Below are positions 29,224 to 38,219 of a DNA stretch of 38,938 nucleotides, piece by piece; position 1 is the stretch's first letter; each line of letters begins with the position of its first letter. A program made the position numbers and the translations under genes. This DNA is from an uncultured Holdemania sp. (GTDB lineage Bacteria; Bacillota_I; Bacilli_A; Erysipelotrichales; Erysipelotrichaceae): positions 1 through 38,938 of the forward strand of contig CAMQTJ010000015.1 in assembly GCA_947037125.1 (NCBI GenBank), in the 5' to 3' direction. The notes beneath the pieces are model-generated. The model did no database searches and had not been told where the DNA came from. It worked only from the letters and a program-made list of their open reading frames with translations.

Positions 29224-30195
29224 TTAGCTAATGTACTTGTTTGTTGCTTTGAATAGTGTTTTACGTATTTCATCTGTAACATATTGTGGCTCAATTACAG
29301 TGCAGTAGTTGATGAATTGAAATGCCCAATAGACTATTCCATCAACTGATGAGTTTATCGTAGCTGTAAAGCTGTGTGCATCTTTATATTCAATTATTGT
29401 GTCAGTTGAAAATCTTTCGATTACTTGATCTAATATTTCATTGTCACAAACAACTTTAAATGTCTCAATTTTACCTGCATACATATATACTTGATTTTTT
29501 ACATATTCATATGGATTAAAATTATTGCTTGCACTGTCTTGTCTTTCATCGATAATTTCCATGTTTGTAATTTTGTCTAAACGATAATGATTGATAGAGT
29601 TGCGATATTCATTAAAGCAAATTAAGTAAAAATTATTTTCACTTTCCACAATATGATAAGGACTAACTTTATATGTTTTTCCATTAGTTACAAGTTGTTT
29701 ATTCATATTATATTTTAAGTATTCAAATTCAATTTTTTTGTTTTTACTAATTGCATTTTTAATTAATTCAATATTAGTAAAAAACAGTTGGCTATTATGT
29801 TTATTACCATTTGATAAATAAATATTTGAAGTAAATTCATCACGGTCATAAATACTTTGTGACTCACATAACTTTTTAATTAATTTTTTAGTGTCTTCTT
29901 CACTTATATGACTTGAAGAATAGATTGAATTACATAACAGTTCAATTTCACTCTTATCAAATTCACGTTGCTTTAAATAACACCCCTTGTTATTTTCTTT
30001 ATATGTTTCAATATTATAGCCATAAACTTCCACAAGTAAAGAGACTGTTGTATATATTGTTCTTCTTTCGATTAAAATGCCATATTCACTTTCAATAAAT
30101 TCTGCTATCTGTTTTGCTGTTAAGATATGGTTTTTATCACTGTATTTCTTTAGTATGTTTAAAATAAGTATGTCATTTGATTGTTTTCTTGCCAT
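29224..30195 (-). CDS. WYL-domain transcriptional regulator, divergent from Wadjet
   Basis: 323 residues. N-terminal winged helix (~1-65: DILILNILKKYSDKNHILTA, QIAEFIESEYGILIERRTIY), a central WYL domain (~145-215: KIEFEYLKYN, KTYKVSPYHIVESENNFYLI, INHYRLDKI) and a C-terminal WCX extension (~240-323, KVVCDNEILDQVIERF). WYL proteins of this layout (BrxR, CapW) repress defence operons and are thought to respond to nucleic-acid ligands. The ATG has AAGGAG eight bases upstream. The gene is transcribed away from jetABCD with a 203-base shared regulatory region, and its own promoter holds a palindrome, so autoregulation and control of the Wadjet operon are likely but inferred. Confidence 0.9.
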   Translation of the reverse strand: MARKQSNDILILNILKKYSDKNHILTAKQIAEFIESEYGILIERRTIYTTVSLLVEVYGYNIETYKENNKGCYLKQREFDKSEIELLCNSIYSSSHISEEDTKKLIKKLCESQSIYDRDEFTSNIYLSNGNKHNSQLFFTNIELIKNAISKNKKIEFEYLKYNMNKQLVTNGKTYKVSPYHIVESENNFYLICFNEYRNSINHYRLDKITNMEIIDERQDSASNNFNPYEYVKNQVYMYAGKIETFKVVCDNEILDQVIERFSTDTIIEYKDAHSFTATINSSVDGIVYWAFQFINYCTVIEPQYVTDEIRKTLFKATNKYIS

Positions 30196-30215
30196 ATTCG
30201 TATCTCCTTATATAT

Positions 30216-30244
30216 ATTGTAATGCATGTGCATTATTTTGTACA
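30216..30244 (-). promoter_or_regulatory. Promoter of the WYL gene with embedded operator
   Basis: Minus strand: -35 TGTACA (30244-30239), exactly 17 bases, -10 TACAAT (30221-30216). The spacer and -10 edge are occupied by the perfect palindrome TAATGCA-TG-TGCATTA (30220-30235), placed where a dimeric repressor would block polymerase. Confidence 0.65.
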
Positions 30245-30263
30245 CAAAAATATCGAATTTATA

Positions 30264-30308
30264 GTTACATTTAATATGATTATGATATAATAATATATAT
30301 TATGTAAC
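30264..30308 (+). promoter_or_regulatory. Promoter of jetABCD flanked by an inverted repeat
   Basis: Extended -10 TGATATAAT (30283-30291). GTTACAT (30264-30270) overlaps the -35 zone and its exact inverse ATGTAAC (30302-30308) lies just past the expected start. A second TATAAT at 30334-30339 is an alternative -10. The leader to jetA is 60-100 bases. Confidence 0.55.
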
Positions 30309-30398
30309 ATATTTTATAGGAGTATTGTAGGATTATAATATATTTAGTCTAAAAAAATGCACTTTAAAATATAAAATATATTTAAGAAGAGGTATTGA

Positions 30399-31886
30399 AT
30401 GAAAATATATGATAAAATGCTTAAACCAATTAACGAAATTAATTATTTAAGAGCTGAAAATGTTGAAAGATATCGGGTTATTATCAGGTATTTTTTTAAT
30501 GAATATGAAAATATCAATTATTGGTTATTTAAAGAAGAAATATTTGAACAAATGTGTGAAACGAATTTGTTTGATGAATATACACTAGATAAGTGTCAAC
30601 AAGACTTAAATGCTTTAGTTGAATGGGGTAATTTAACGGCATTGCAAGATAGTTCATATACGACAAGTATTGAAGATTTTAAAAATCGTAAATATCGATA
30701 TCAAATTAGTGATTATAGTGTTGAAATTGAAAGGCTTGTCATTAAACTTGAACACCTTAATGTTGAAGGGGCTTCACTAGAGCCAACTTTGTTACAAAGA
30801 ATCAGGGAATCAATTTTTAAGCTTAAAACGATGTTGCATGAAAGTGATGAAGATGTTTATGCTTGTTTTGATTCATTAAGTAATGATTTTAAATTACTTA
30901 ATCATAGTTATCAAGATTATATTAAAATGCTTAGTAGTGCAAAAGCTGAAGAACTTATGAAAAGTACTGATTTTTTAATGTATAAGGATAAATTAATTAA
31001 GTATTTAAGAACTTTTGTGAAAAGTCTTCAAGAAAATTCATTGATGATTGAATCATATTTGAATAATATTAGTGATGAAGAAATTGCAATAATCATCAAT
31101 AAGTCAACTAACTATATTTATAATATTCCTCGTCTGAATAGTGATGCTACATATGATGATTTTCATCAAAAGATTAATGGCCAATATAAAAGTATTTATA
31201 AATGGTTTGTAGGTGTAAATGGAATTAACGAAGTAAGTCGTATGTATACGATTACTAATGATATAATTCGAAAGATTACATTTTATGCTCAACAAATTGC
31301 AGAGTTTCACAATATTGGTGTAAATAAAAAACAAGAATATGCTCATATTGCGAATATCTTTTTAAAGTGTGAAAATATTAATCAGGCCCATGAATTATCA
31401 AGTCTTGTTTTTGGTGTTGATAGTTGTTTGCATTTTAAAAATATCAAAGATAAGAGTAGTGATAGCATTGATGATAGTATTTATGATTGCGATAGTGAAC
31501 TGATAAAACTTGAAAGTAGAACAAGAAAACTGACAACTAAAAGTGTTAGAAAATCGATAGTTGATTTTGAATTTGAAAAGAATGCACATAAAATACAATT
31601 AGAAAATGAAATGGAAAATAATAAGAAACTGATTGAAAAACTGATTGTTGATGGTACCATTGATTTTAATAATTTAGGTGAAATTGATTCATATACAAGA
31701 AAAACTATACTATCGTGGCTTAATTTAGCGATGAGTAGTGTAGATAAACAGGCGAAAAATCAGTTTAATCAACAATTTTATATTGATGATAGTGATAGTG
31801 ATAAATATATTACAATCAAGTGTATTGATGGTAATTTTACAATGCCACACTTTAAGATAGTATTTAAGAATGGAGGATTGTTATGA
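30399..31886 (+). CDS. jetA: Wadjet type II protein JetA (DUF2397/TIGR02677)
   Basis: 495 residues. The N-terminus INEINYLRAENVERYRVIIR, FFNEYENINYWLFKEEIFEQ and the TTSIEDFKNRKYRYQISDYS, EGASLEPTLLQRI blocks are those of DUF2397 proteins. JetA is the kleisin-like subunit (MksF/MukF analogue) that bridges the SMC heads and recruits JetB. It is mostly alpha-helical with no enzyme motif. ATG 30399 follows AGAGG with six-base spacing. The stop TGA overlaps the jetB ATG by four bases (ATGA). First gene of the operon, running away from the WYL regulator. Confidence 0.92.
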   Translation: MKIYDKMLKPINEINYLRAENVERYRVIIRYFFNEYENINYWLFKEEIFEQMCETNLFDEYTLDKCQQDLNALVEWGNLTALQDSSYTTSIEDFKNRKYRYQISDYSVEIERLVIKLEHLNVEGASLEPTLLQRIRESIFKLKTMLHESDEDVYACFDSLSNDFKLLNHSYQDYIKMLSSAKAEELMKSTDFLMYKDKLIKYLRTFVKSLQENSLMIESYLNNISDEEIAIIINKSTNYIYNIPRLNSDATYDDFHQKINGQYKSIYKWFVGVNGINEVSRMYTITNDIIRKITFYAQQIAEFHNIGVNKKQEYAHIANIFLKCENINQAHELSSLVFGVDSCLHFKNIKDKSSDSIDDSIYDCDSELIKLESRTRKLTTKSVRKSIVDFEFEKNAHKIQLENEMENNKKLIEKLIVDGTIDFNNLGEIDSYTRKTILSWLNLAMSSVDKQAKNQFNQQFYIDDSDSDKYITIKCIDGNFTMPHFKIVFKNGGLL

Positions 31887-32995
31887 GTTCATTTAATTCA
31901 TTGATGAGTCAAAAATTTATCCTTAAAGCTAAAGATTTTGATCAATATTATTTAGTTAAAGATAATTTAAAGACAATTAAAAAAGATTATCTTGATAAAT
32001 TTGGTTATGGTATTTATATTAATCAATCTTTAATTAAATTAGAAAAAGTGCCTGGAAAACCTGAACCATGGATGGGAATATTAGATTTTAGTTCGATTGA
32101 AGAATATCAAATGTTATGTTATTTATTGATGTTTTTAGAGGATATGGAAATAGCTAATCAGTTTGTATTATCTAATTTATTAGAATTTATTCAAGTGAAA
32201 TTTGTTGATAATCCAATAACATTTAATGATTTTAGCGTGAGAAAAAAATTGATTAGAGTCGTTAAATATGCAATTAAAATAGGAATTATTATTAATAATG
32301 CAGGTGATGAAGATAAATTTTCACAAAATATCCAAACAGAGGTTTTATTTGAAAATACTGGTGTATCGCGTTATTTTTTAAGGTCATTTGTTACTGATAT
32401 CTTACAATGGGATAATGTAAGTGACTTTTTTGATAATCAATATTTAAATATGGATGAAGATCGTGGAATTGTAAGAACACATAGAGTGTATCGTCGTTTG
32501 TTATTATCACCGTGTATTTATCGTAGTGATGGTAATGATGAGGACTTTAACTATATAAGAAATTATCGTAATCGTATTGAAAAAGATTTTCAAAAATTAT
32601 TTTCATGTGATCTTCATGTTTATAAATCTTGTGCTTTTTTAGTTATTGATGAAGATGTGAAAATTGGTAAATTTATTGATAATAAAAATGCTATGGATGA
32701 TATATTATTATTGTTTAATTATGAGGTTATTAAACGTGTTAAAAATAATAGTTTGAAAATTAATAGTATTGATAAAATAATTGTCAATGAATATATGATT
32801 AATTTAATTATTGATTATGTAATTAAAAACAATTTTGATTATATTCCTAAAGCATATCAAGTAAATAATAATTTAAGTAGTGATGTTTTGAATCGTTTAA
32901 TTGTTTTAGGTTATGTAACACTTAATGATGAAATATATACAATTAATCCTATTGTGAAAATATTGGGTGGTAATTATGAAATGGAGAAAAGTTAA
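31883..32995 (+). CDS. jetB: Wadjet type II protein JetB (DUF2398/TIGR02678)
   Basis: 370 residues. DUF2398 signatures are clear: RTHRVYRRLLLSPCIYR, FNYIRNYRNRIEKDFQKLF and CDLHVYKSCAFLVI in the C-terminal half, and tandem winged-helix-like segments before. JetB is the KITE subunit (MukE analogue) that binds the JetA kleisin. AATGGAGGA (ribosome site) lies inside the jetA end. The TAA overlaps the jetC ATG by one base, so stoichiometric translation is likely. Confidence 0.92.
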   Translation: MSSFNSLMSQKFILKAKDFDQYYLVKDNLKTIKKDYLDKFGYGIYINQSLIKLEKVPGKPEPWMGILDFSSIEEYQMLCYLLMFLEDMEIANQFVLSNLLEFIQVKFVDNPITFNDFSVRKKLIRVVKYAIKIGIIINNAGDEDKFSQNIQTEVLFENTGVSRYFLRSFVTDILQWDNVSDFFDNQYLNMDEDRGIVRTHRVYRRLLLSPCIYRSDGNDEDFNYIRNYRNRIEKDFQKLFSCDLHVYKSCAFLVIDEDVKIGKFIDNKNAMDDILLLFNYEVIKRVKNNSLKINSIDKIIVNEYMINLIIDYVIKNNFDYIPKAYQVNNNLSSDVLNRLIVLGYVTLNDEIYTINPIVKILGGNYEMEKS

Positions 32996-35900
32996 TGAGT
33001 GATAATAGATGGCATTTAAATAAGTTAGGGCTAGTTGATTTTTGGTTTTATACTGATGAAGTTTTTAATTTTGATAATGGTCATATGATGCTTAGGGGTT
33101 CTAATGGGTCTGGTAAGTCAGTAACACTTCAAAGTTTTATACCGTTATTACTTGATGGAAACAAGGCTAGTGAACGTTTAGATCCTTTTGGTACTAGATC
33201 ACGTAAACTTGAAAATTACTTGTTAGATGAAAATAGTGAGCGTGATGATCGTATAGGTTATTTGTATATTGAATTTAAAAAAAGTGATCTTGAAGTATAT
33301 AAAACAATTGGGATGGGAATACATGCTAGAAAAAACAAACCAATTGATTGTTGGTATTTTGTTATTGAAGATAATCAAAGAATCAATATTGATTTTAAAC
33401 TAATTAATAATGGCTTTACATTAACTAAGCAGCAATTAAAGAATCAAATTGTAAATCAGGTAATTGATAATCAAAAAGAATATATGGCTAAAGTAAATAA
33501 ATCATTGTTTGGTTTTGAAAGTATTGATGATTATAAAGAAATGATAAATTTATTATTACAGTTAAGAACACCTAAATTATCAAATTCATTAAAACCATCA
33601 AAGCTAAATGAAATGTTATCTAATTCATTACAACCATTATCACAAGATGATTTAAGACCAATGTCAGAAGCGATTGCGAATATGGATGCTTTAAGTGAAC
33701 AATTAGAAATATTGAATAAATCATATGTTTCAGCTAAAAGAATCGATGAAATATATAGTAAATATAATGAAGCAGTATTAAGTGATAAAAACAAAAAATA
33801 TCAAGAAGTTTTAAAAGCTTTAAATGAAACAAAAAGAAAAGTAATTGAAAATGCCAATAAGTTAACTAAAGATGAAAATAATTTATTAGAAATTAATGAT
33901 AGTATTAATCAATTACAAAATGAATTCATAAAAAATGAAAATGAAAAAGATGTTTTAGATTCATCGGATGTTATGAAAATGGTTAAGGACTTAGCACAAA
34001 TAAAAATAGAGATTAAACAAAGTATTGAAAGATTAAACAATAAAACTACAATAAGTGATAAAAAGCAGGATAAGCTAATTGATTTACACAATGATTTAAA
34101 ACAAATCCAAGATAAATTATTTACTACTCAAAAATTAATGGATGAGAAAATCAGTTTACTTAATGAAGTAAATGATGAAGTTAATTTCATTGATCATGAT
34201 TTGATTGTACTTGATATAAATGACAATACAAAAGAGCTTAATTTTGATTATTCTACAGGATTAATCAATGATGAACTAAAATTAATTAATGATGGAATTG
34301 ATAAATTAAATATCGTAGATACTTTAAAATCAATAGTTGATGAATTTATTAATCGTTATGATATTTTTGTTGATAAACAAAAAAAGGTAAATCATGAATT
34401 AATTGAAGTTAGTGATAATTTAGCGTTAAGTAAAAGTGAATATTTTGAAAATATGGTTGAATATAGTAATAATAATCAATTTATTAAATTTAGTGAAGAG
34501 CAATTAAATTTAATCATGGATTATATTAATCAAGTAAATGAATTAGCTGTATTTAAACTTGTTCAAAATATTGCCTCTTTACAAGATAAAAAATTGGCAC
34601 AACAAATCATTGAGAAAAAACTAGAACTACAAACTCTTAAAAATTTAATCAATGATCAAAAAGCTGAATTGAATAGTTTAATTAATAGCGATAGCATCGA
34701 TTTTTTAATGGACGAGCAAACCATAATTAATCGTAACTATTTAAAACAGAATAATATTGAATTTATGCCTTTATATAAATGTATTGAATTTAATGAAATT
34801 AATAGTGATGTACATGATTTACTTGAAGAAGTATTATCACAATTAAAATTATTAAATGTTGTTTTAATTGATAATAAATACAAAGATATGGTTATTGAAA
34901 ATGGTAATTGTGATTCATATATATTTATTGATGATTTCAGTTCAGATTTTAAAATTATGGTTGATTTAAATAATAATATTGATGATATTGTTTTATATAT
35001 ATTTAAGGTGCTAAAGATTACATTTAATGATAATTTAATTATTGAAGACAATTATTTAGTAGCAAATAATATTATGATAACTATGGATAATGATAATTTA
35101 TCAAAATTTATTGGACAAGCTAATCGTTTAAGACAAAAAGAAATTAAAATTAATGAGTTAAAACAAATAATCTTAGTAAAACAAAATGAAATTGATGAAA
35201 AGACAATTGTAGTGATTGATTTAGAAAATAGTCGTAAGCTAATTAATCAAGAAGTTACATTGGTGATAAGTTTTGATAATATCAATGAGTTTAATAAGCA
35301 AATTTATAATTTAGGGCTTGATATTAAGCATTATGATAATGAAATTGAAAATATTACTAGTCAAATAAGTATTAAAACAAATGAATTAGAAATCGTTAAT
35401 ATCCAAGTAATTGAAATTGGAAATAAATATAAATTAGTTTGTAATAAGACTGTCTTTATTAATAGACGTGATAATTTAATTGAATATAAAAATATTTTAG
35501 ATAATTTATTTGGTTTACATCAAAAATGTTGTAATGAATTGGGTAATATTAATAGTTTTAACGTTCAAATACAAGATGCTACAAGTGACATTGATGAAAT
35601 AAATGCTGATATATATCAAATTAAAAATCTTATTGATATAAATCAAAATAAGGTTAAAGTAATTGATGAAAATATTCAAAAAGTTGATGGCGAAAATATT
35701 AAAGAAAGACTACATTTTTTAATTAGTCGTTTAAAACAAATACCTGAGATTACAAATGAAAAATATCAAATCAAGGGTAAGCTTGAAAATGAGATTGATG
35801 CAAGTGTAAAAAAGAATATAGAACTTAATAATGAAGTAGATAAAAGATTAATAGCACATAATATTTATCAAAAAGTCTTAAATGATGAACTTAATTTAGG

Positions 35901-36951
35901 TTATGTTTTTAGTGATGGAGAACAAGTTGTTTTAAATAAGTTAAGTGGCACAAAAAGTATTAATGATTTAAACAATGATTTGCAACGTGTTATTCGTGAT
36001 AATAGTGTTCAACTTAGTGATTATCAATTAAATATGAATTACATTTTAGCAAGTGATCAAATTGATAATATTAGTTCTAGAATTGATTTAAGTGCAAAGT
36101 ATCAAAGTAAAAAAATTAACTTTAAAACTTTATTAGAAAATATTAAAAGTGATGTATCAATGCAAGAAACACTTTTAAATGAAAGTGATAAAATAATCTT
36201 TGAAGATATACTAGTAAATAACATCAGTAAAAAAATCAGACAACATATCCATACAAGTAAGAAATGGGTAGATAATATGAATAAATATATGGGTGCAATG
36301 GATACTAGTAGTGGACTTAAATTATCGCTTAAATGGGCTAGTAAAAAAGTTGTGAATGAAGATGAAATGGATGCAACCAAATTAGTTGAATTACTACAAA
36401 AAGATGCTTTTTTATTAAAGAATGAAGATTTAAATAAGATATCTGCCCACTTTAGAGGTAAGATAGCACGTAGTAAAGAACTTTTAAAAGCTGATAATTC
36501 TCTAAAGAGTTTTCATGAAATTATGAGTGATGTTATGGATTATCGAAATTGGTTTGAATTTAAGATCATGTATCAAAAAACAAATGAAAGTAAAAAAGAG
36601 TTAACAAACAATAATTTCTTTGCTTTTAGTGGTGGAGAAAAAGCAATGTCGATGTATGCACCTTTATTTTCAAGTGTTGCAGCCAAGTTTGAAAGTGCAA
36701 ATGATGATTGTCCTTTAATAATTGTTTTAGATGAAGCATTTGCCGGAGTTGATGAAAGAAATATTAATAACATGTTTGATTTGATTTCTAAGTTTAAATT
36801 TGATTTTATTATGAATTCTCAAGTATTATGGGGAGATTATGCAAGTGTTAAATCATTGGCAATCTATGAATTGTTTAGATTAGAAAATGCACGTTATGTA
36901 ACCATTTTAGCGTATAATTGGAATGGTTCAACTAGAAAATTGTTAAGTTAA
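32995..36951 (+). CDS. jetC: Wadjet type II SMC-like ATPase JetC (TIGR02680)
   Basis: 1,318 residues. Walker A RGSNGSGKSVT (Lys at ~41), ABC signature FSGGEKAMSMY near 1212 and Walker B IIVLDEAFAGVDE (Asp-Glu at ~1246-1247) form the split ATPase head. Between them lie long coiled coils (about 265-560 and 700-1120) rich in Asn, Ile, Lys and Glu, and a small globular part around 575-710 (MPLYKCIEFNEI, LLNVVLIDNKYKD) at the place of the TIGR02680 hinge or elbow domain. JetC is thought to extrude DNA loops and recognise small circular DNA, so that JetD cuts it. All ATPase residues look intact. One-base overlaps with jetB and jetD. Confidence 0.95.
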   Translation: MSDNRWHLNKLGLVDFWFYTDEVFNFDNGHMMLRGSNGSGKSVTLQSFIPLLLDGNKASERLDPFGTRSRKLENYLLDENSERDDRIGYLYIEFKKSDLEVYKTIGMGIHARKNKPIDCWYFVIEDNQRINIDFKLINNGFTLTKQQLKNQIVNQVIDNQKEYMAKVNKSLFGFESIDDYKEMINLLLQLRTPKLSNSLKPSKLNEMLSNSLQPLSQDDLRPMSEAIANMDALSEQLEILNKSYVSAKRIDEIYSKYNEAVLSDKNKKYQEVLKALNETKRKVIENANKLTKDENNLLEINDSINQLQNEFIKNENEKDVLDSSDVMKMVKDLAQIKIEIKQSIERLNNKTTISDKKQDKLIDLHNDLKQIQDKLFTTQKLMDEKISLLNEVNDEVNFIDHDLIVLDINDNTKELNFDYSTGLINDELKLINDGIDKLNIVDTLKSIVDEFINRYDIFVDKQKKVNHELIEVSDNLALSKSEYFENMVEYSNNNQFIKFSEEQLNLIMDYINQVNELAVFKLVQNIASLQDKKLAQQIIEKKLELQTLKNLINDQKAELNSLINSDSIDFLMDEQTIINRNYLKQNNIEFMPLYKCIEFNEINSDVHDLLEEVLSQLKLLNVVLIDNKYKDMVIENGNCDSYIFIDDFSSDFKIMVDLNNNIDDIVLYIFKVLKITFNDNLIIEDNYLVANNIMITMDNDNLSKFIGQANRLRQKEIKINELKQIILVKQNEIDEKTIVVIDLENSRKLINQEVTLVISFDNINEFNKQIYNLGLDIKHYDNEIENITSQISIKTNELEIVNIQVIEIGNKYKLVCNKTVFINRRDNLIEYKNILDNLFGLHQKCCNELGNINSFNVQIQDATSDIDEINADIYQIKNLIDINQNKVKVIDENIQKVDGENIKERLHFLISRLKQIPEITNEKYQIKGKLENEIDASVKKNIELNNEVDKRLIAHNIYQKVLNDELNLGYVFSDGEQVVLNKLSGTKSINDLNNDLQRVIRDNSVQLSDYQLNMNYILASDQIDNISSRIDLSAKYQSKKINFKTLLENIKSDVSMQETLLNESDKIIFEDILVNNISKKIRQHIHTSKKWVDNMNKYMGAMDTSSGLKLSLKWASKKVVNEDEMDATKLVELLQKDAFLLKNEDLNKISAHFRGKIARSKELLKADNSLKSFHEIMSDVMDYRNWFEFKIMYQKTNESKKELTNNNFFAFSGGEKAMSMYAPLFSSVAAKFESANDDCPLIIVLDEAFAGVDERNINNMFDLISKFKFDFIMNSQVLWGDYASVKSLAIYELFRLENARYVTILAYNWNGSTRKLLS

Positions 36952-38219
36952 TGGATAATAATATTGCTTTAGCTAATTACTTATTAAGTAAAAAAGGCTT
37001 CGAAATATTTTTAGATAAGTGCAAAAAACAATATCAAAAATTTGGTAGTTATAAAGGCGTTGTGCAAATGATTTTAGTTGATGATAATAAAGAAGATTTA
37101 CTTGGCTTTTTTGGTTATCATAATACTAATAGCTTAAAAATAAATAAAAAAATGATTGATAAAGCAATAGCGAATTCTAAATTTGATGGTGCTAATTTTG
37201 ATGAAGTCTTAAAAATAATATTTACTGATTTAAAAGCAAATAAAGATGTTATCAGTGAATTAAATCAATTAAGAACAATCTATATAAAACAATGTTTAAT
37301 TAATTATCAAAATAGTCAATTTTATGATTATTATATAAATAATCAAATAAGTTTGATGAGTACTTTTAATTATGAATATAGTAAAAATAAAAAAAGCTGT
37401 AAAGAATTAATTAATAATTTGGCACTAGCTTATAATAATTTACCTAGTTATCAAAATGAAATAAAGCTAATTTCATTTTATTCTAATGAATTATTTTCTA
37501 ATTCACATTTACTTGATGATAATAATAAATTAGCTAATATGTTTTTTAATGCATTGTTATATCAAACAAATACAAAAAGTATTAGTACTTTAAATGATAA
37601 AATGGAAGTTTATTTAAAATGTGGTTTGATTCAAGATGAAGTATCTAACTTTAGTATGATTTGTCATTTATTACCAATAAATGATTCAAAGAAAATGATT
37701 AGTTATCAAATGTTTTATGATACATATGAACCACTTAATTTATCACTGGCAAACCTTAGAAACATTGATGGATTTTCAGATGATATTGAAAAGGTTTTTG
37801 TTGTTGAAAATCCTTCTGTTTTTATTATGTTGATGTATTATATTAAAAATAATAAGATTAATGTTGGTCTAATATGTACAGGTGGACAAATTAATAAATC
37901 TGGCTATGAAATTATTGATTTATGTGTAAACGCTAATTATCAAATTTATTATGCAGGGGATTTTGATCCTGAAGGTTTATTGATTGCGAATAAGCTTGTA
38001 GAAAAATATAATTCAATTATCTTATGGGGTTATACTTTAGCTAATTATTATAAAACTAATCCTACAATTACAATAAGTGATAAAAGATTAAGTCAATTAG
38101 ATAATTGTTTAAATACTCAAACAGTAAAGATTAAACAATTATTACAAGAGAATAAAAAAGCAGGGTATCAAGAAAGCTTGCTTGATTATTATAAACAAGG
38201 GCTTAATAATCTTGTTTAG
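36951..38219 (+). CDS. jetD: Wadjet type II nuclease subunit JetD (DUF3323 + DUF2399, Toprim)
   Basis: 422 residues. The N-terminal ~260 residues correspond to DUF3323, and the C-terminal DUF2399 part has a Toprim fold: metal-binding Glu in FVVENPSVFIML (~285) and the DxD motif in YYAGDFDPEGLLIA (Asp ~337 and ~339), with ICTGGQ between. This is the topoisomerase-VI-like nuclease that cuts plasmid DNA after loop extrusion by JetABC. Catalytic positions are intact, so the system is predicted active. Start overlaps the jetC stop (TAATG). No terminator follows before the nitroreductase gene 46 bases later. Confidence 0.93.
   Translation: MDNNIALANYLLSKKGFEIFLDKCKKQYQKFGSYKGVVQMILVDDNKEDLLGFFGYHNTNSLKINKKMIDKAIANSKFDGANFDEVLKIIFTDLKANKDVISELNQLRTIYIKQCLINYQNSQFYDYYINNQISLMSTFNYEYSKNKKSCKELINNLALAYNNLPSYQNEIKLISFYSNELFSNSHLLDDNNKLANMFFNALLYQTNTKSISTLNDKMEVYLKCGLIQDEVSNFSMICHLLPINDSKKMISYQMFYDTYEPLNLSLANLRNIDGFSDDIEKVFVVENPSVFIMLMYYIKNNKINVGLICTGGQINKSGYEIIDLCVNANYQIYYAGDFDPEGLLIANKLVEKYNSIILWGYTLANYYKTNPTITISDKRLSQLDNCLNTQTVKIKQLLQENKKAGYQESLLDYYKQGLNNLV

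Follow-up and report, generated by a model that had tools for sequence, protein, structure and literature searches.

The window analysed here, a stretch of 38,938 nucleotides from an uncultured Holdemania sp. and one of the 135 contigs of an assembly of 2.49 Mb, encodes a type II Wadjet system that is, as judged from sequence, complete, intact, and ordinary in kind, together with a divergently transcribed gene for a WYL-domain regulator. We favour, with some reserve, the reading that this is a standard jetABCD operon standing beside a WYL protein of a lineage resident in the genus, which likely regulates its own gene and may in addition modulate jetABCD. Comparison across loci indicates that the WYL–Wadjet pairing is a local and repeated recruitment and not a conserved module.

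The Wadjet operon and its surroundings

The four jet genes follow one another with overlaps of 4 (jetA/jetB), 1 (jetB/jetC), and 1 base (jetC/jetD), an order that is common to about 90 relatives (Table 1). The coordinates of these genes, as well as those of the WYL gene on the opposite strand, are exactly as given in the preliminary description. Its call of a type II Wadjet likewise stands, as PADLOC (JetA2 3e-173, JetB2 3e-108, JetC2 0, JetD2 9e-87), NCBIfam, and Pfam agree: TIGR02677, TIGR02678, and TIGR02680 exceed their cut-offs and DUF2397, DUF2398, DUF2399, and DUF3323 score above their gathering thresholds, while JetD stays under the curated cut-off of TIGR02679 (144 bits, E 5e-42, vs. 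196 bits) and is clear by the other libraries. The catalytic motifs, all of which had been reported as present, were judged on alignments with 86–92 relatives per Jet subunit and are kept throughout, namely Walker A (NGSGKS, G35 to S42), the signature (S1212 to K1216), and Walker B (LDEAFAG, L1245 to G1251) in the SMC ATPase JetC as well as the Toprim acidic residues E286, D337, and D339 in JetD. At columns that are at least 97 % conserved, the window proteins depart from their relatives only at N457 of JetA, D266 of JetB, F570 and I695 of JetC, and S185 of JetD, all of them non-catalytic.

Table 1. Features of the Wadjet/WYL locus (positions refer to the window)
Feature	Position	Strand	Description and basis
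WYL-domain transcription regulator	29224..30195	minus	323 aa; Pfam WYL, PADLOC WYL
Divergent intergenic region WYL/jetA	30196..30398		203 bases, 18.7 % GC
Predicted WYL promoter	30216..30244	minus	-35 TGTACA, 17-base spacer, -10 TACAAT; consensus match only
Palindrome TAATGCAtgTGCATTA, candidate operator	30220..30235		between predicted WYL -35 and -10 boxes
TTTTGTACACAAAA with core TGTACA (30239-30244)	30236..30249		hexamer enrichment; overlaps predicted WYL -35
Predicted jetA promoter	30264..30291	+	-35 GTTACA, 16-base spacer, TG before -10 TATAAT; consensus match only
jetA, kleisin subunit, DUF2397	30399..31886	+	495 aa; family models, alignment
jetB, KITE subunit, DUF2398	31883..32995	+	370 aa; family models, alignment
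jetC, SMC ATPase, TIGR02680	32995..36951	+	1318 aa; family models; Walker A/B and signature intact
jetD, Toprim nuclease, DUF3323/DUF2399	36951..38219	+	422 aa; family models; E286, D337, D339 intact

In its genes, their order and overlaps, the protein families, and the catalytic residues, the window matches type II Wadjet (JetABCD; TIGR02677, TIGR02678, TIGR02680, TIGR02679), from which it differs by the divergent WYL neighbour and by the divergence of its sequences. The best relative of its JetC is only 39 % identical, as compared to a median of 64 % for the nearest relatives of other loci, and in the JetC tree the window lies on a long branch inside a supported group of 15 sequences from the same order. 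By these comparisons, the system is a sequence-divergent addition to known type II Wadjet, and the operon is complete and probably functional. In characterised Wadjet systems, an SMC motor acts on small circular plasmids and JetD cleaves them, which restricts these plasmids; this picture stems mostly from type I, type II having been studied less (PMC10586767). By analogy with these systems, JetA, JetB, and JetC of the window would, as a complex, extrude DNA loops and sense small circular DNA, which the nuclease JetD would then cut. A clostridial jetABCD was reported to restrict conjugation in its native host, and the text of that study contains no WYL regulator (PMC12287153).

Upstream of the Wadjet and WYL genes lies a purE-purL-purM-purN-purH-purD cluster, with a purine riboswitch 5' of it (window:14090-14189). 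Other upstream genes encode a metallo-beta-lactamase, AIM24, and EAL proteins as well as a 287-aa protein (window:25179-26042) whose N-terminus resembles the RNA polymerase alpha C-terminal domain (PF03118, 4e-9) and which is otherwise unassigned. The neighbours also include a transporter gene and, downstream, a nitroreductase gene. A defence island was rejected in view of these neighbours (purine synthesis, transporter, EAL, AIM24, nitroreductase), and the PADLOC matches on the metallo-beta-lactamase gene look generic. Two tested flank genes are absent from three same-genus genomes, which makes the region a variable one and precludes an empty-site comparison there; no tRNA insertion site was found at the locus. 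JetC relatives were nearly absent from phages and plasmids in a search of both. Within the order, JetA2 scores above its cut-off in 25 of 316 genomes, and it was not found in the three same-genus genomes searched.

WYL genes beside type II Wadjet loci

The window WYL protein comprises an N-terminal winged helix-turn-helix (HTH), a WYL domain (residues 142–213; Pfam WYL 5e-12, above its gathering score; PADLOC WYL 1e-26), and a weak WCX region (244–314; 0.0017). It thus has the HTH, WYL, and WCX parts of a WYL regulator, the HTH being recognised by alignment with relatives only and WCX falling below its cut-off. Homologues (E <= 1e-25) occur in 166 of 315 genomes of the same order. In a tree built from 40 neighbourhoods, the window protein is sister, with a support of 1.0, to the WYLs of three same-genus loci (L170, L171, and L172), to which it is about 45 % identical; all of them have very similar HTHs with the helix ERRTIYTTV in common. 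The genomes of these three loci are devoid of JetA2. As identified by eye only, their WYL genes face a gene for an RlmD-like methyltransferase, followed by WXG100-like and FHA/EssC-like (type VII secretion-like) genes. The window's own genome has an RlmD-like gene on another contig, and no WYL gene was found beside it in the stretch covered.

How often a WYL gene neighbours jetA was surveyed on 24 stretches from the same order and 80 loci from GTDB genomes, which gave 95 unique jetA loci, 75 of them with at least 2 kb of upstream sequence and thus forming the denominator. With a profile seeded by diverse WYLs, three of these 75 proved to have a WYL gene no more than 4 kb upstream of jetA: the window (204 bases from jetA as measured in this survey), L048 (446 bases), and L043 (1392 bases). 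All three are divergent, and all three belong to the same bacterial order. The preliminary description had named the lack of a WYL gene beside Wadjet in all relatives as an outcome that would speak against its proposal; this is not what was seen, since two relatives have one. In L048, jetA (L048:11959-13452) is split by an in-frame TAA, for which reason this system, the other one closely linked to a WYL gene, may be inactive.

The WYLs of L048 and L043 are placed elsewhere in the WYL tree, apart from the window protein, which implies that the window pairing arose separately. A conserved module would show orthologous WYLs retained next to type II Wadjet, and none were found; the three cases out of 75 involve non-orthologous proteins. 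The preliminary description had singled out a WYL-controlled type II Wadjet as the possibly new part of the locus. Of this proposal, the neighbouring gene proved real, whereas the claim of WYL control is weak, given three loci out of 75 and WYLs of separate lineages. Moreover, the co-localisation as such is not new, as a published BrxR survey (PMC9122601) already counts Wadjet as one of the systems linked to WYL. In the open-access papers on Wadjet and WYL that were consulted, no control of Wadjet by a WYL protein is described.

The sparse and unrelated occurrences raise the question of mere coincidence, that is, that WYL and Wadjet genes came to be adjacent by chance or through shared insertion habits and that the WYL protein regulates only itself or distant genes. 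Several observations agree with this: the closest WYL relatives stand beside unrelated genes, the flanks are variable and absent from genus relatives, and the family at large has many different partners, most of them other than Wadjet. When 19 Jet-bearing genomes of the order were scanned with Pfam WYL, 44 matches were obtained, among which no further WYL close to jetA was seen; random placement would then lead to about 0.05 neighbours among 19 loci, as opposed to the three independent and uniformly divergent ones observed. This estimate is rough (about 2.3 WYLs per genome and an estimated number of ~2,600 genes) and takes no account of the variable regions that regulators and defence genes share. 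Coincidence keeps a minor, though by no means negligible, share of the probability.

A different partner is recurrent. Among 82 WYL loci, 44 neighbourhoods contain, directly beside the WYL gene and divergent from it, a gene for a protein of about 105 aa that matches a HIRAN profile, in most cases unrelated to Wadjet; since the 82 were chosen from the best-scoring WYL matches, this share should not be read as a census. Pfam HIRAN, which has been described as a DNA 3'-end-binding domain, matches two tested members at 4e-9 and 1e-8. In both L048 (L048:13511-13828) and L043 (L043:14423-14734), a HIRAN gene stands between the WYL gene and jetA, and L043 additionally encodes a PIN7-domain protein (L043:13550-14419) between HIRAN and jetA. 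The window differs from these divergent WYL–HIRAN pairs, with which it shares a homologous WYL, by the lack of a HIRAN gene, as none was detected among the open reading frames of the gap or in the whole assembly. A loss of HIRAN from the window was considered and not adopted, as it would look the same as HIRAN never having been present.

The divergent intergenic region

Upstream of the window-WYL family, TGTACA is the most over-represented hexamer, being found in 26 of 82 regions vs. 3.95 expected from dinucleotide shuffles, an excess that is partly inflated because such shuffles leave shared ancestry in play. The hexamer often lies 40–46 bases upstream of the WYL start in relatives and 43 bases upstream in the window. 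Both promoters listed in Table 1 deserve little weight, as the number of sites predicted by such scans did not exceed that in shuffled sequences. With this reservation, the layout, in which TGTACA falls on the predicted WYL -35 box and the palindrome into the WYL spacer, favours autoregulation of the WYL gene; an effect on jetABCD would be possible, with either sign. From the hexamer to the predicted jetA -35 further downstream there are 19 bases, and the WYL protein might hence act only on itself. The palindrome TAATGCAtgTGCATTA is the sole exact copy within the window. Its arm of 7 with at least two G/C was matched in 26 of 1000 shuffles and, by a laxer score, in 154 of 1000, which is only suggestive of a non-random origin. 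As an operator of the family it was rejected in favour of TGTACA, not being common to the relatives, and it is retained as a candidate.

WYL proteins comprise repressors such as BrxR and CapW as well as activators such as PafBC and DriD. The preliminary description took the first view, in which the window protein would be a dedicated BrxR/CapW-like repressor of jetABCD that an invader-derived ligand releases. The likeness extends to the winged HTH and WYL domains with a weak WCX, the position of the gene beside a defence operon, and a palindrome in the single divergent promoter region, and BrxR and CapW indeed repress defence genes from palindromes; three WYL–Wadjet juxtapositions, where the rough estimate predicts hardly any, point in the same direction. 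However, CapW sites overlap the -10 box of the regulated operon, whereas the window palindrome lies inside the predicted WYL promoter and upstream of the predicted jetA promoter. Also, the BrxR family as surveyed comes to 97 % from proteobacteria (PMC9122601), while the window WYL is a member of a large family from another order, most of whose partners are other than Wadjet, and the WYL neighbours of Wadjet are both rare and drawn from three separate lineages. A dedicated regulator–Wadjet pair at this particular locus is possible, yet we regard dedicated repression as unlikely, and a role of the WYL protein as repressor is unsupported.

The activator view, in which a PafBC/DriD-like protein would raise jetABCD upon sensing single-stranded DNA, for instance when a plasmid enters or DNA is damaged, draws on the relatives. 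In nine cases, a TAnnnT toward the partner gene starts 16 bases after the start of TGTACA (10-base gap), while no offset reached more than 3 in 300 shuffles; the arrangement was noted in L173, L182, L187, L195, L203, L205, L225, L227, L249, and others. This phase equals that of the mycobacterial PafBC motif, tTGTCRgtg-8 nt-TAnnnT (PMC5656591), a motif that PafBC recognises as a -26 element through sigma adaptation (PMC11804915). Besides the domain type and this spacing, the many HIRAN genes among the WYL partners would fit an activator of this sort. The window protein is, in contrast, a single 323-aa protein, and TGTACA-N10-TAnnnT was looked for in its gap and is absent, the predicted jetA promoter being of ordinary type; the fixed distance before the -10 box that characterises PafBC-type activators is thus seen in several relatives but not here. 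Such activation of jetABCD seems improbable to us. Still somewhat less probable is a broader version, according to which a HIRAN-pairing WYL family of the same order has repeatedly been put over type II Wadjet as a single-stranded DNA or DNA-damage switch of plasmid restriction acting through a PafBC-like TGTACA.

Returning to the favoured reading, the divergent WYL gene belongs to the genus-resident regulator lineage and was placed beside Wadjet independently of the other WYL–Wadjet neighbours. Its product most likely autoregulates via the TGTACA/palindrome element between WYL and jetA, and it may alter jetABCD transcription once a nucleic-acid ligand occupies its WYL domain. We infer DNA binding, autoregulation, and any effect on jetABCD, including its sign, from sequence features. 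A regulatory coupling of WYL and Wadjet at this locus is plausible, though not conserved.

Implications for the WYL family

If the coupling were real, it would mean that plasmid restriction can be inducible instead of constitutive. Of more general reach, and of greater interest than the Wadjet itself, is the WYL family: its common TGTACA element and its frequent divergent HIRAN partners suggest PafBC-like, possibly damage-sensing regulators outside actinobacteria.
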